Part shown: positions 1-14,052 of the stretch, in pieces
How positions within the stretch are numbered: the stretch's first letter is position 1
How the letters are laid out: each line of letters opens with the position of its first letter
IMG/VR virus record: IMGVR_UViG_3300032050_008696
Location: 1-58,865 of that record
Source of the DNA: a virus
Length of the DNA: 58,865 bases
Direction: 5' to 3' (one strand)
The notes under the pieces: generated by a model
Databases searched by the model: none
Told to the model about the DNA's origin: nothing
What the model saw: only the letters and a program-made list of their open reading frames with translations
Translations under genes and position numbers: made by a program

Positions 1-285
1 CACAATATGTTATGTTATTCGTCCACAATCCACACAGTTAATTACTCCGCGTGTTGATGATTGATGGGCCTTCTTTTTCCCACAACGACCTACGATATAT
101 CATTTATAATTTAGCTACGATGTCGTTACGCTTGAATTACAAGTTGTCCAACTCATAATTCTCCATAGACTTACACCACATATTGTTACTCCAACCAATA
201 ATGATTCTTCATCACTATTGTGCGTTACCCCTATACGAAAGGTTGTTCCGCCACTATCTTAAATTGTTAAAGAACTATCAAAAAA
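1..285 (-). other. gene-free leader or trailer region, structured on the minus strand
   Basis: I see no credible ORF or tRNA here. Read on the minus strand, it lies downstream of the intron-bearing tRNA and of a boxA-like element. Two foldable segments are visible: a 12-bp hairpin with a 4-nt loop at 134-161, and a weaker GGG/CCC hairpin near 70-95. The 7-base word CTACGAT is repeated directly near 92 and 115. It may be a further untranslated RNA or simply the 3' part of the tRNA precursor. The window edge prevents a decision. Confidence 0.3.
261..275 (-). promoter_or_regulatory. boxA-like antitermination element 1
   Basis: Minus strand GTTCTTTAACAATTT, downstream of the intron-bearing tRNA. 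It differs from the E. coli rrn boxA core GCTCTTTAACAATTT by one base. Confidence 0.6.
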
Positions 286-563
286 TGGTAGGGATGAGTG
301 GATTCGAACCACCGCTTTACAGATTTTCGTACTACTATAACTTTCGTTACTCATTTCTGATTTGTAGTCTGGACTTTCTCTTCATCATAACATTTCTGTT
401 TTAGATGTTCGCCGTTAAGTCTCTACACCTTTTCATTTCTGAACTTGGCTCGGGATTGGCAGTTAAGCTTTCCCCGAATTTGACGAATTCTACTTTGAAG
501 ATTTCTCTTCAAGCACTCAATTTACGCTAAAGTCTGTTGCCTCTTCCGCTGGGCTACATCCCC
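286..563 (-). tRNA. tRNA with Leu(UAA) anticodon, interrupted by a group I intron
   Basis: The 5' exon (563-530) and 3' exon (327-286) join into a 76-nt tRNA with a 7-bp acceptor stem, encoded CCA and a canonical T-arm. The anticodon stem is ACAGA/TCTGT around a loop CTTAAAA. Splicing falls between positions 34 and 35 of anticodon UAA, the same site used by cyanobacterial and plastid tRNA-Leu introns. The variable loop is only about 5 nt (AAAGC), whereas bacterial tRNA-Leu has a long variable arm, so the charged amino acid is uncertain. It lies behind a TTGACA/TAAGAT promoter and a boxA-like element. Confidence 0.85.
328..529 (-). ncRNA. group I intron, IC3-like, about 202 nt
   Basis: Visible catalytic-core elements, in order on the minus strand: P near 480-468 (AATTCGGGGAAA), Q near 459-446 (AATCCCGAGCC), R near 428-411 (GTAGAGACTTAACGG) and S near 383-371 (AAGAGAAAGTCC), with GACTT/AAGTC available for P7. 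The 5' exon ACUU pairs with an internal guide GAGU, giving the U-G pair at the splice site. The 3' exon AA can pair with UU next to the guide (P10). GAAA tetraloops cap hairpins at the P2 and P9 positions. The intron ends in G (position 328) and has no ORF. Its size is close to the ~205-nt Azoarcus tRNA-Ile intron. Confidence 0.88.
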
Positions 564-836: not shown

Positions 837-980
837 ATGGGAAGAAAACAAAAATATAAAACTGAAGAAGAAAAACTTAACGCACGTCGTGAAAGACAAA
901 TGCGTTATTATTTCAAAAATCAACAAGTTAAAAAAGAACAATCATTAAAAAGATATTATAAAAAGAAAGAAAACAAATGA
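837..980 (+). CDS. 47-aa very basic protein upstream of the HNH endonuclease
   Basis: ATG at 837, stop TGA overlapping the ATG of the next gene as ATGA. The product is rich in Lys, Arg, Tyr and Gln and predicted helical, with a Tyr-Tyr/Lys spacing like the DNA-binding helices often attached to homing endonucleases. The overlap suggests translational coupling, so the two proteins may act together or be halves of one endonuclease. I do not recognise a named family. It is antisense to the tRNA genes around it. Confidence 0.6.
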   Translation: MGRKQKYKTEEEKLNARRERQMRYYFKNQQVKKEQSLKRYYKKKENK

Positions 981-1381
981 AAACATTCAATTCAATTTGT
1001 AAATGTTGTAATCAACAATTTGTTCATCACTCTTCATCTGGTGGTGTATATTGCACTAATAAGTGCCAACAAAGATATCAAACATCTATAATGAAAGAAC
1101 AGATTAAATCTGGTACATATCCAAATATTCCAACTAGACCATTTATATATTCAATGTTATGTGAAGATTTTGGAAATAAATGTTCACTATGTGGAATAGA
1201 CGGAAATAACTGGAATGGGAATTCTATTAGATTGTGGGTAGACCACATTGATGGTTATGCCAACAATAACAAATATTCTAATTTCAGATTAATCTGCCCC
1301 AATTGTGATTCCCAACTTGATACTTGTAGAGCAAAAAATAAAGGAAAAGGAAGAAAATCTTTGGGATTAAAAATCCGTTGA
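977..1381 (+). CDS. HNH homing endonuclease, free-standing
   Basis: 134 aa. An N-terminal zinc site (CxxC near residues 9-12, CxxxC near 26-30) precedes a second CxxC at about 75-78 and an HNH core: V-D-H-I-D-G near residue 97, then an Asn-rich turn and L-I-C-P-N-C. The Asp-His and following Asn match the catalytic pattern of small phage HNH enzymes. It lies on the plus strand inside a minus-strand tRNA array and probably entered as a mobile gene. It could have moved the nearby group I intron, but nothing in the sequence proves a partnership. Confidence 0.85.
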   Translation: MKTFNSICKCCNQQFVHHSSSGGVYCTNKCQQRYQTSIMKEQIKSGTYPNIPTRPFIYSMLCEDFGNKCSLCGIDGNNWNGNSIRLWVDHIDGYANNNKYSNFRLICPNCDSQLDTCRAKNKGKGRKSLGLKIR

Positions 1382-1491: not shown

Positions 1492-1565
1492 TGGTAGCGG
1501 GTAGCCGAATTACACGACTTCCTTCTCGTTATGAGCGAGATATGCTATTTTTACACTCACCCGCA
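1492..1565 (-). tRNA. tRNA with CAU anticodon (Met, fMet or Ile2), divergent
   Basis: The anticodon stem TCTCG/CGAGA closes CTCATAA. The acceptor stem has six good pairs and a T1/T72 mismatch, reminiscent of the unpaired 1-72 position of initiator tRNA. The T-loop is TGTAATT rather than TTCRAxx. CCA is encoded. Which of the three CAU species it is cannot be decided from sequence alone. Confidence 0.65.
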
Positions 1566-1664: not shown

Positions 1665-1741
1665 TGGTTGCTGAAGCATAGGAATCGCACCTACTTAATG
1701 AATGGTTATGAGCCATCCCCAGATCTAACCTGCCGCCAGCT
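1665..1741 (-). tRNA. tRNA with CAU anticodon, atypical acceptor
   Basis: The anticodon arm GATGG-CTCATAA-CCATT and the T-arm GTAGG-TGCGATT-CCTAT are clear, and CCA is encoded. The acceptor pairs imperfectly, with an A/A mismatch at 1-72 and about two extra bases before the 3' strand. This is the third CAU tRNA in a row, so initiator, elongator Met and Ile2 roles may be split among them. Confidence 0.5.
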
Positions 1742-1745
1742 ATTG

Positions 1746-7320: not shown

Positions 7321-8163
7321 ATGAAAGGTATTATTCTATCAGGAGGCACTGGAAGCAGACTATATCCGCTTACCGCAACAGTAAATAAGCAATTATTGCC
7401 TGTTTATGATAAGCCAATGATTTATTATCCGTTAAGCACAATGATATCGTGTGGTATACGTGAGTTTTGTATCATTTCTACTCCAGAATATCTACCAATG
7501 TATGAAAAGTTATTTGGCAACGGAAATCATCTTGGGCTAGAAATAACTTACAAAATACAATATAAACCAAACGGTATAGCTGAATCATTTATAATAGCTG
7601 AAGATTTTATCGGTAACGATAACGTATCACTTATACTTGGTGACAATATATTTCACGGATTAAACCGAGTTAAAACAAATCTTAATGGCGCTTTGGTTTT
7701 TGCTTACGAAGTAAACAATCCACAAGACTATGCAGTAGTAGAGTTTGATGATAACAACAAAGTTATTAGTATAGAAGAAAAACCTAAAGCTCCAAAAAGT
7801 AAATTTGCCATTCCCGGCTTATATTTCTTCGATAATAGAGTTGTTAAGTTTAGCAAATCATTAAAACCATCCAAACGTGGCGAACTGGAGATTGTGGATG
7901 TCATGAACGCGTACCTAAACGACGGTGGTATTGATGTTATTAAATTTCCTAGGGGTACTGCTTGGTTAGACGCTGGTCTACCAGACTCACTGTTCCAAAG
8001 CGCTGCTTATGTAAAAACAATTCAAGAAAGACAAGGTATACGAATTGGTTGTATAGAAGAAGAATGTTACAACAAAGGATTTATTAATAAAGCACAACTT
8101 AAGAAAGTTATTGACAAATTACCAAATTCAGAATATAAAGCTTATTTACAGAAGTATGAATAA
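7321..8163 (+). CDS. rmlA: glucose-1-phosphate thymidylyltransferase (RmlA)
   Basis: Makes dTDP-glucose from glucose-1-phosphate and dTTP. 280 aa, the usual short-form length. G-G-T-G-S-R at 8-13 is the nucleotide loop, K-Q-L-L-P follows at 23-27, L-G-D-N lies at 106-109, and an E-E-K-P motif is present. These are RmlA features and differ from the CTP-using RfbF. First of four overlapping genes that make a dTDP-deoxysugar. No clear Shine-Dalgarno precedes the ATG, and the promoter was not identified. Confidence 0.95.
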   Translation: MKGIILSGGTGSRLYPLTATVNKQLLPVYDKPMIYYPLSTMISCGIREFCIISTPEYLPMYEKLFGNGNHLGLEITYKIQYKPNGIAESFIIAEDFIGNDNVSLILGDNIFHGLNRVKTNLNGALVFAYEVNNPQDYAVVEFDDNNKVISIEEKPKAPKSKFAIPGLYFFDNRVVKFSKSLKPSKRGELEIVDVMNAYLNDGGIDVIKFPRGTAWLDAGLPDSLFQSAAYVKTIQERQGIRIGCIEEECYNKGFINKAQLKKVIDKLPNSEYKAYLQKYE

Positions 8164-9448
8164 AAAAGAACTAATCAAAAATTTTATACAAGAAGTACAA
8201 AAAATTCAATTTGTACCAGAATACTGCCACAATCTAAAAGGAGCCAAGAACAAGGTTTATTACTCTGGTCCATTAATGGATGAGGAAGAATTAACAGAAG
8301 CTATTGATTCGTTGTTATTCGGCAAATGGTTTGTTAGCGGTGAAAAGGTTTATCAGTTTGAAAGAGAATTCAGCAAAACTGTAAATCAAAAACATTCGGT
8401 AATGGTTAATTCTGGTAGTTCAGCAAATCTTGTAATGATTGCTGCACTAAAACAATACTTCAAGTGGACATCTACAGATGAAATTCTTATTAGCGTAGTA
8501 GGATTTCCAACCACACTTAATCCAATTATTCAAGCGGGTCTAAAACCAGTGTTCGTAGATATAGAATACGACACTTTAAACTTTGACTTAAATGAATTGG
8601 TAAAGAAAATTACACCAAACACCAAAGCTATATTCGTTTCACCTGTACTTGGCAACCCTCCAGACATGGATAAGCTGGTCGAAATCGCCAAGGCAAACAA
8701 CCTAGAAATTATCATGGATGGTTGTGACAGTTATGGTAGCAAGTGGAATGGTAAACATTTAGACGAATATGCTATAGCAACTAGCTGTAGTTTTTATCCA
8801 GCACATCACATCACAACAGGTGAAGGTGGCATGGTCAGTTCAAACGTAGAAGAAATTGTAAAACTTGCTAGAACATTTGCTTGGTGGGGAAGAGATTGTT
8901 ATTGTGTTGGTCCCGCTAATTTGTTGAAGAACGGTAGTTGCAATTGCAGATTCAGTCAGTGGATCAAAGAACTTCCATATGAAATTGATCACAAGTATTT
9001 CTTCTCACAAATTGGCTACAATCTAAAGCCACTTGATCTACAAGGCGGTATTGGATTGGCTCAGTTGAAGAAAGCAGACGGTATTCATGAAGCTAGAAAG
9101 AAGAACAAAGATACCATTCAAAATATTCTATCTGGAATTAAAGGATTGAAGTTTCCAACTAAACATGATAAAGCAGATGTATCTTGGTTTGGCGTACCTG
9201 TAATTTGTGAATCATTTGAACAAAAGTCCAAGTTGGTTATTTATCTTGAAACAAACGGCATTCAGACACGCAATTACTTTGCTGGTAACATTCTACTACA
9301 TCCAGCTTATACACACTTGGAAAGTTGGAAGAATTATCCAAACGCTACAAACGTACTCGGCAACGTATTCTTCTTGGGATCGTCACCAACACTAACCCAA
9401 GACAACCTAGATTACATGAAAGAAATCATTGAAAAGTATGAAAATTGA
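8156..9448 (+). CDS. RfbH/E1-type PLP and [2Fe-2S] sugar 3-dehydrase
   Basis: 430 aa, DegT/DnrJ fold. The Schiff-base Lys is replaced by His in Y-P-A-H-H-I-T (213-219), the hallmark of 3-dehydrases that remove the C3 hydroxyl of 4-keto-6-deoxyhexoses. Cys190, Cys248, Cys250 and Cys262/264 match the spacing of the [2Fe-2S] ligands of the Yersinia E1 enzyme. Known enzymes of this type mostly use CDP-sugars; here the neighbours make dTDP-sugars, so a dTDP substrate (as for SpnQ-like enzymes) is likely. The start at 8156 overlaps the end of rmlA. No E3 reductase partner is visible in the window. Confidence 0.9.
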   Translation: MNKKELIKNFIQEVQKIQFVPEYCHNLKGAKNKVYYSGPLMDEEELTEAIDSLLFGKWFVSGEKVYQFEREFSKTVNQKHSVMVNSGSSANLVMIAALKQYFKWTSTDEILISVVGFPTTLNPIIQAGLKPVFVDIEYDTLNFDLNELVKKITPNTKAIFVSPVLGNPPDMDKLVEIAKANNLEIIMDGCDSYGSKWNGKHLDEYAIATSCSFYPAHHITTGEGGMVSSNVEEIVKLARTFAWWGRDCYCVGPANLLKNGSCNCRFSQWIKELPYEIDHKYFFSQIGYNLKPLDLQGGIGLAQLKKADGIHEARKKNKDTIQNILSGIKGLKFPTKHDKADVSWFGVPVICESFEQKSKLVIYLETNGIQTRNYFAGNILLHPAYTHLESWKNYPNATNVLGNVFFLGSSPTLTQDNLDYMKEIIEKYEN

Positions 9449-12697: not shown

Positions 12698-13150
12698 ATG
12701 AAAGTTGAGTTACAAAGTTATTTAAAGAAAAAGTTTCCTGCGTTGTATCAATCAAACTTTGAATTTGAATGTAACGATGGATGGTTTCGAATATTATTAT
12801 GGTTGAGTAGATATTTGGAAATGTACATCACACAACAAAATGAAATGGCTACAAAAAATCCACAATATTATCAGCCGGTAAAACAAGTTACAGCTAGACA
12901 GATAAAACAAAAATTTGGCACTTTAAGATTCTACTATGAAGGAGGAGATGAACATATACGATCTATAGTAGAATATACTGAATTTATCTCTGGCTATATT
13001 TGTGAAGAAACAGGATCTATGAACGATATTGGCTATAACAGAAAAGGATATGTACAAGTACTACATAAAGATTTAGCAAAAAACAAAAATGATTTTAACT
13101 TCGTTGATGACGAAGAGTTACGAACACTACTAAAAACATATGATAAATAA
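12698..13150 (+). CDS. conserved phage protein of unknown function
   Basis: 150 aa. The start at 12698 is preferred over an in-frame ATG at 12629 because the first 23 residues of the longer form look like translated intergenic DNA. The motifs D-G-W-F near residue 27, K-F-G-T-L-R-F-Y-Y near 75 and C-E-E-T-G near 110 recur in a conserved but uncharacterised family of large phages and bacteria. The 3' end overlaps the protease gene by 11 bases. Confidence 0.75.
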   Translation: MKVELQSYLKKKFPALYQSNFEFECNDGWFRILLWLSRYLEMYITQQNEMATKNPQYYQPVKQVTARQIKQKFGTLRFYYEGGDEHIRSIVEYTEFISGYICEETGSMNDIGYNRKGYVQVLHKDLAKNKNDFNFVDDEELRTLLKTYDK

Positions 13151-13739
13151 ATTAATGATTAAATCCGAAGACGATTTGGACAACCACTACGAAAAACAAA
13201 AGTTCGTATCTGTTATAGATAATAATGAATTGTATTTCTACAACGAAGTTAATAATGAATCAGTGTTAATGTTAAATAAAACATTAAATGATTTAACCAG
13301 ACAGTTGTTGATCACACAAATAACTTTTGATCTTAAAGAAACACCTCATATCAAGTTACATATCAATAGCGACGGTGGTGAAGTATTTGGTGCATTAAGT
13401 ATCGTTGATCGAATTAAATCATCTAAGGTACCAGTTTATTCCTATGCAGAGGGATTGGTTGCAAGTGCTTCTACCTTGATAAGCGTAAGTTGCCATAAAC
13501 GTTACATACGTAGAAATACCATATTATTAATTCATCAAGTACGTAGTTGGTTTGAAGGAACATACGAAGACTTTAATGACGAAAAACAAAATATGGATTT
13601 GGTTATGAAAATAATCAAAGATGTATATCTAAAACACACTAAATTTACAGAGGAAGAGTTAAACACACTATTAAAACGAGATATTTATCTAAATGCAGAT
13701 GATGCTATAAAATATGGACTTGCAGACGAAATTATCTAA
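13140..13739 (+). CDS. ClpP-like serine protease
   Basis: 199 aa. The crotonase-fold triad is complete: Ser109 in G-L-V-A-S-A, His132 in L-I-H-Q, and Asp181 before the A-D-D-A helix. N-S-D-G-G at 76-80 is the oxyanion turn. The N-terminus lacks the usual ClpP axial-loop sequence, so docking to host ClpX/ClpA is uncertain. Phage proteins of this type either mature capsids or interfere with host proteolysis; nearby genes are not head genes, so I cannot choose. Confidence 0.88.
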   Translation: MINKLMIKSEDDLDNHYEKQKFVSVIDNNELYFYNEVNNESVLMLNKTLNDLTRQLLITQITFDLKETPHIKLHINSDGGEVFGALSIVDRIKSSKVPVYSYAEGLVASASTLISVSCHKRYIRRNTILLIHQVRSWFEGTYEDFNDEKQNMDLVMKIIKDVYLKHTKFTEEELNTLLKRDIYLNADDAIKYGLADEII

Positions 13740-14052
13740 AGAGGGATATGTTTATATTATAAGTAACAGCAATTTCCCAGGCTATTACAAGGTGGGAATA
13801 ACTCATGATATAAAAGAACGATTACGAACATACCAAACAGCATCTCCATTACGCAACTACAAAATAGAATATTATATTCATCATCCAAACTGTTATCGTG
13901 CTGAAAAACAAATAGCCGAAAAACTTAGGTATTTTGCTACCGAAATCAAAAATGAATGGTATAAATGTGCACTCGAAATTGTAAAAGATAGACTTGACGA
14001 GAGTTTAGAACCCGAAGAAAATGTGTTGACTTTTATAAAAAGAGGTGTATAG
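13714..14052 (+). CDS. T5orf172/MUG113-type GIY-YIG nuclease-like protein
   Basis: 112 aa. G-Y-V-Y-I-I-S opens the domain, then Y-Y-K-V-G-I-T and an Arg-Leu-Arg turn, and later R-A-E-K-Q-I-A with the catalytic-type Glu, and N-E-W-Y. It starts inside the protease gene, overlapping by 26 bases in another frame, so the two are co-translated. Whether it cuts DNA or only binds it is not known for this family. Confidence 0.85.
   Translation: MDLQTKLSKEGYVYIISNSNFPGYYKVGITHDIKERLRTYQTASPLRNYKIEYYIHHPNCYRAEKQIAEKLRYFATEIKNEWYKCALEIVKDRLDESLEPEENVLTFIKRGV

Follow-up and report, generated by a model that had tools for sequence, protein, structure and literature searches.

A compact group I intron in the anticodon of a phage tRNA-Leu(UAA) gene

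The split tRNA gene

The stretch of DNA analysed here (hereafter the window) is a virus record of 58,865 bases, the first 2.5 kb of which contain a minus-strand tRNA array. The record is that of a phage, in agreement with an earlier note on this DNA, which had called the split tRNA a phage tRNA: its family B DNA polymerase, of the T4 type, shares 44% identity along its length with the enzyme of Microcystis phage Mel-JY01. A megablast comparison of window positions 1-25000 with phage records gave no match. Five tRNAs are listed in the array by ARAGORN at default settings, which misses the split gene; with intron search the program returns one tRNA, at 286-563(-), with an insert of 202 nt. When the exons are joined by the rules of group I splicing (5' splice after the U of the P1 U.G pair, 3' splice after a G), a tRNA of 76 nt is obtained, with loop CUUAAAA and anticodon UAA, split between U34 and A35. 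The acceptor, D, anticodon and T arms of the spliced tRNA all pair, and ARAGORN scores it as a normal tRNA. The tRNA-Leu(UAA) gene at 286-563(-) is interrupted between U34 and A35 by a compact group I intron, in the 202 nt of which no ORF, and no endonuclease ORF in particular, was found. The features of the locus, in window coordinates, are the following.

286..563 (-): interrupted tRNA-Leu(UAA) gene with an encoded CCA; class I body, 76 nt after splicing; the spliced sequence is called Leu(taa), 76 bases, by ARAGORN
530..563 (-): 5' exon, last base U34 (530); junction fixed by the intronless relative L252
328..529 (-): group I intron, 202 nt, last base G (328); Rfam match and exact absence in L252
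286..327 (-): 3' exon, first base A35 (327); junction fixed by L252
519..520 (-): guide UU, P10 with A35-A36 (327-326); covaries with the anticodon bases across isotypes
515..518 (-): internal guide GAGU, of which GAG pairs with C32-U33-U34 (532-530) as P1, with U34.G at the splice site; read from the sequence, P1 invariant in 31 of 31 relatives
492..514 (-): P2 hairpin with GAAA loop; from the fold, 9 of 10 pairs changed on both sides
469..480 (-): element P region (5' side of P4); conserved columns of alignment A1
444..453 (-): element Q region CCGAGCCAAG (3' side of P4, 5' side of P6); conserved in alignment A1
418..429 (-): element R region GGUGUAGAGACU (5' strand of P7); invariant in relatives
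371..376 (-): element S region AAGUCC (3' strand of P7); invariant in relatives
337..350 (-): terminal hairpin with GAAA loop (P9 region); from the fold, 4 of 4 pairs changed on both sides
977..1381 (+): free-standing HNH endonuclease ORF of 134 aa in the tRNA array; PHROG 10822, E 2.8e-17; 414 nt from the split tRNA

Anatomy of the intron

The covariance model that the earlier note had named as a check, Rfam RF00028 (Intron_gpI), matches at 347-539(-) with 70.7 bits, above its cut-off of 50 (E 5.6e-16). All the elements listed in that note could be confirmed, namely P, Q, R and S, a P1 with a U-G splice pair, a P10 of 2 bp, a terminal G and the GAAA loops of P2 and of the terminal hairpin; U34 is paired to G518 in P1 and G328 is the 3' end. 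All columns that are invariant in the relatives are found in the window intron, and P1, P7 and P10 are intact. The thermodynamic fold of the intron alone is only mildly better than that of shuffled sequences (z -1.70), by a method blind to the P3/P7 pseudoknot. In sequence the window intron comes closest to tRNA introns from phages and bacteria, and similarity to the bacterial ones would place it in subgroup IC3. A chance occurrence can be discarded because the Rfam E-value, the covariation in relatives and the existence of an intron-minus allele (see below) all speak for a group I intron.

Covariation and the retuning of P10

A structure comprising the anticodon stem, P1, the helices P2 to P9, P7 and P10 was tested on an alignment (A1) of 31 non-redundant phage introns with their exon flanks. 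In A1, 97.4% of the pair cells are paired, against 78.9% when shuffled and 29-44% when slid; 37 of the 58 pairs changed on both sides, with 342 double-change cells versus 88 in shuffles. Double changes occur in all six P3 pairs. P7 is invariant in its five pairs; like P1, it never varies in A1, and both are therefore uninformative by covariation.

The most telling helix is P10, in which the two bases 5' of the guide GAG pair with anticodon bases 35-36. The dinucleotide changes with these bases across eight tRNA isotypes: UU:AA in Leu, AG:CU in Arg, AG:UU in Lys, AC:GU in Thr, CG:UG in Gln, GG:UC in Glu, AU:AU in Ile and UC:GA in Ser. Of 36 introns, 29 pair fully here (20,000 shuffles gave a mean of 16 and at most 25); two of the exceptions, L062 and L089, arise from the wrong first GAG having been taken. 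Nine of the ten non-Leu introns pair fully; a second scan, whose loci partly overlap those of the first, gives 18 of 20 (shuffled mean 9.8, maximum 16). Such retuning would not be expected to be kept by sequence released from splicing.

An intron-minus relative

When viral contigs were scanned for the exon-exon sequence, L252 was retrieved, 12 kb of a 15.5-kb contig. Window positions 14-327 and 530-729 align to its adjoining segments 7691-8011 and 8012-8211, the 202 nt in between being exactly absent; as read from the alignment, the match is lost if the junction is placed one base to either side. The intronless tRNA of L252, at 7970-8045(-), is called Leu(taa) and encodes CUUAAAA directly. Since this junction cannot be slid, the intron boundaries and the anticodon UAA are fixed, and the empty site confirms the earlier reading of an intron of about 202 nt inserted between the U and the AA of the anticodon. 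A further relative, L025, has the intron: its spliced tRNA and the intact tRNA of L252 are identical over 76 nt, and its intron is about 90% similar to that of the window and has about 56 additional nt close to the 3' hairpin. Intron-plus (window, L025) and intron-minus (L252) alleles are present in close relatives, which means that the intron is gained and lost with the tRNA gene retained. The earlier statement that phage decoding depends on ribozyme splicing is unsupported, for a close relative has the tRNA without the intron and a host tRNA-Leu could serve.

HNH genes next to split tRNAs

The HNH ORF of the window, 977-1381(+), has a Pfam HNH match only below the cut-off. A protein 78% identical to it is encoded in L025, and no HNH of this kind was found in the 12-kb stretch of the intronless L252, which provides a single contrast of a relative minus both intron and HNH gene. 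Among the matches listed, an HNH ORF of the window's family lies within 1 kb of 10 of 46 intron loci, where 2.9 would be expected if positions were drawn at random within these loci, a null that counts near-identical loci as independent; none lies within 1 kb of the other 36. At seven distinct loci an HNH ORF, which may have either orientation, abuts or overlaps the split tRNA gene (distance 0-40 nt):

L013: 6022-6510
L019: 5292-5579
L025: 7504-8229
L046: 993-1469
L062: 13392-13994
L069: 1580-2074
L080: 2121-2630

In collaborative homing, a free-standing endonuclease spreads an ORF-less intron (PMC3984707), an example being cyanophage psbA (Zeng 2009, as cited in PMC3984707). The phage tRNA introns resemble such trans homing systems in being ORF-less and in having free-standing HNH genes near or adjoining them, and the HNH neighbours fit collaborative homing. 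In the window, 414 nt separate the split tRNA from the HNH gene, which is a possible helper in the spread of the intron.

Proposed explanation and alternatives

Taken together, the evidence very probably describes a small ORF-less group I intron between U34 and A35 of a phage tRNA-Leu(UAA), predicted to be self-splicing, and a near-neutral selfish element spread by recombination. In the tRNA transcript the guide GAG would pair with C32-U33-U34 (P1) and UU with A35-A36 (P10); a guanosine would attack after U34, U34 would then attack after the terminal G, and the exons would join. The joined tRNA would read UUA, the commonest leucine codon of the phage (24.8 per thousand in the genes counted). 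Self-splicing, the use of the tRNA on UUA and its charging with leucine are what I infer from the sequence. Its persistence is most likely that of a selfish element with a nearly neutral effect, which would move between phage tRNA arrays by recombination (gene conversion), probably with the help, in some phages, of free-standing HNH endonucleases encoded close to the split tRNA or adjoining it.

A more far-reaching account can be offered tentatively, and is somewhat doubtful as a whole: a distinct family of ORF-less group I introns might be active in phage tRNA arrays, inserting between U34 and base 35, P1 reading C32-U33-U34, which is the same in every host tRNA found at this site, P10 being retuned to bases 35-36 after each jump between isotypes, and adjoining HNH enzymes cutting intronless anticodon loops and thereby aiding spread.

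It is unlikely that the intron is kept for use, either because host anticodon nucleases would be kept from a precursor whose anticodon loop is split, or as a maturation switch dependent on GTP and folding. The insertion is indeed always in the anticodon loop, the splicing signals are strongly constrained across eight isotypes, and phage tRNAs have been reported (PMC10264068) to evade tRNA-targeting defences by anticodon-loop changes. However, equal constraint on splicing signals is predicted for a selfish intron, the same introns are found at this site in bacterial genes, where phage pressure is absent, and the near relative L252 retains the same tRNA without an intron, which is therefore dispensable there.

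That the tRNA gene, at the array's edge, is dead and its intron degenerate and unable to splice is a very improbable alternative to the selfish element: some neighbouring tRNA-like sequences are poor (a CAU tRNA missed by ARAGORN reaches 36.9 bits) and the pairing between 5' exon and guide is short (4 bp), yet every column invariant in relatives is kept along with P1, P7 and P10, and the four arms of a tRNA scored as normal still pair. Hardly any credence is left for a mature tRNA-Phe(GAA) split after U33, which ARAGORN reports with intron search and which a class I body as in tRNA-Phe would suit, since its intron would not end in G, its P1 would lack the U.G pair, and the intronless L252 refutes it with an encoded CUUAAAA, an anticodon UAA and an unslidable insertion junction.

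The Phe(GAA) label arises because the boundary slid by one base, so that the intron no longer ends in G; likewise, the labels Tyr(AUA) and Ser(UGA) given by ARAGORN -i are boundary slides that leave the intron without its terminal G or lose P1. Annotators should be aware that default tRNA finders miss split genes, or misname them (Phe, Tyr, Ser, Sec) through a slide of the splice site.

Other phage tRNA introns

A scan of viral contigs for the core motif returned at least 120 stretches. Under a strict rule (U34, terminal G, a five-pair anticodon stem, a spliced tRNA accepted by ARAGORN and a junction inside the anticodon), at least 46 introns lie between U34 and base 35, a set that includes the window and L001, from a phage record. 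Seven isotypes are represented among the matches listed: Leu(UAA) with 34, Arg(UCU) with 6, Lys(UUU) with 2, and Gln(UUG), Glu(UUC), Ile(UAU) and Thr(UGU) with 1 each. The second scan, for a base 35 other than A, returned 70 stretches in all, 34 of them with a tRNA, of which 32 have the intron between bases 34 and 35; it adds Ser(UGA). Named phages are among the hosts. The huge phage LR756501 (735 kb) carries the intron in a class II tRNA-Leu, and two cultured phages are Agrobacterium phage Atu_ph07, with an unannotated tRNA-Leu(UAA) interrupted by a 278-nt group I intron (MF403008; gene at L245 1158-1519, intron at 1193-1470), and Gordonia phage Daredevil, with a Lys(UUU) tRNA and a 238-nt intron.

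Several side observations concern annotation and arrangement. In Atu_ph07 an annotated hypothetical protein ORF (1468-1584) overlaps the 3' exon of the split tRNA. A tRNA-Arg of 286 nt is annotated in Microcoleus phage My-WqHQDG (OR578706; L246, 1013-1298); in the ARAGORN reading its anticodon is CCU and 213 nt are inserted in the anticodon loop. L119 has two split genes about 0.4 kb apart, Arg(UCU) at 12992-13196 and Leu(UAA) at 13580-13816, the introns of which fall on different tree branches. In Pelagibacter phage HTVC120P (L002, 1501-1655) and in KT997847 (L003, 1501-1576), a related group I core separates two annotated fragments of a capsid protein, so that what was annotated as two genes is probably one capsid gene interrupted by an intron.

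Bacterial counterparts and the intron tree

The window intron is an ordinary member of the bacterial and plastid tRNA-Leu(UAA) intron kind, with which (Paquin 1997) it shares the site between U34 and A35, P1 CUU:GAG, P10 UU:AA and the terminal G; the introns of this kind are likewise ORF-less, of about 200-300 nt, and copies were retrieved in several bacterial phyla. It differs in its host, a phage array and a class I tRNA of 76 nt as against the class II tRNAs of 85-92 nt in the bacterial set, the class I body being a feature of the exons and not of the intron. Bacterial tRNA-Leu(UAA), Arg(UCU) and Thr(UGU) genes have the same junctions, which indicates an old and widespread intron kind; those of Arg(CCU) and CAU tRNAs are other junctions. 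The group IC3 intron of the Azoarcus tRNA-Ile(CAU) presumably has the same compact size and kind of core as the window intron, but it sits in a different tRNA and, in the set parsed, after base 33. No closer tie of the window intron to the Azoarcus-type group than to others was seen.

A tree of 100 introns (39 from phages and 61 from bacteria, including the CAU-tRNA introns of Rhodocyclales) requires 8 changes of the phage/bacteria label, against 31 in shuffles, the phage introns grouping mostly together. Some starred branches mix isotypes, joining Leu L066 with Arg L119, and Leu L046 with Lys L012 and L079; another (L043 and L096) joins class I and class II Leu hosts. Together with the intron-minus allele of L252, this grouping and the mixing of isotypes speak for mobility. 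No single origin of the phage tRNA introns is claimed because the tree is weak at depth (midpoint support 29/83).

Known and new

Phage-borne self-splicing introns, some of them spread by endonucleases, are known (PMC3984707, PMC11878797, PMC12363816). Those of T4 td and its relatives, of Bastillevirinae and of Jug phages interrupt coding genes, in contrast to the window's tRNA gene. In a review of bacterial group I introns, Hausner et al. (2014) noted that all phage introns seen until then were in protein genes, despite the many tRNA genes of phages; that phage introns avoid tRNA genes is contradicted by the at least 46 cases reported here, named phages included. A later report of phage tRNA group I introns was not found in the open-licence literature, though papers outside it may exist, and the word "intron" is absent from the main text of the Atu_ph07 and huge-phage papers. 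Phage tRNA genes are apparently an undescribed location for introns of the tRNA-Leu(UAA) type. The kind of ribozyme is already known; what is new is its location in phage tRNAs, the breadth of isotypes and the HNH neighbours. These introns provide material to test how ORF-less introns move between tRNA genes, by reverse splicing or with the help of endonucleases, and whether a split anticodon matters during infection.

tRNA bodies in the array

The spliced window tRNA has a class I body with a short variable loop, unlike the class II tRNA-Leu of bacteria, a point absent from the earlier note; class I hosts make up 9 of the 34 phage Leu(UAA) intron cases among the matches listed. It is possible that a class I tRNA with a Leu anticodon does not accept leucine. 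Along the same line, a swap of classes is seen in the array: tRNAs with Leu anticodons (UAA, CAA) are class I, and the tRNA with the Ile anticodon UAU (94 nt in the window, 92 in L252) has a long variable arm similar to class II. The loci concerned are:

Window (-): 286-563, 650-726, 1392-1485
L252: 7970-8045, 8132-8208, 8392-8483
L025: 7347-7437

The window array also contains tRNA-like sequences with CAU loops that ARAGORN misses, one at 1495-1565(-) and two recognised by eye at about 1587-1658 and 1665-1742(-), of which only the first reaches the Rfam cut-off. The corresponding part of the array in L252 holds two normal CAU tRNAs.
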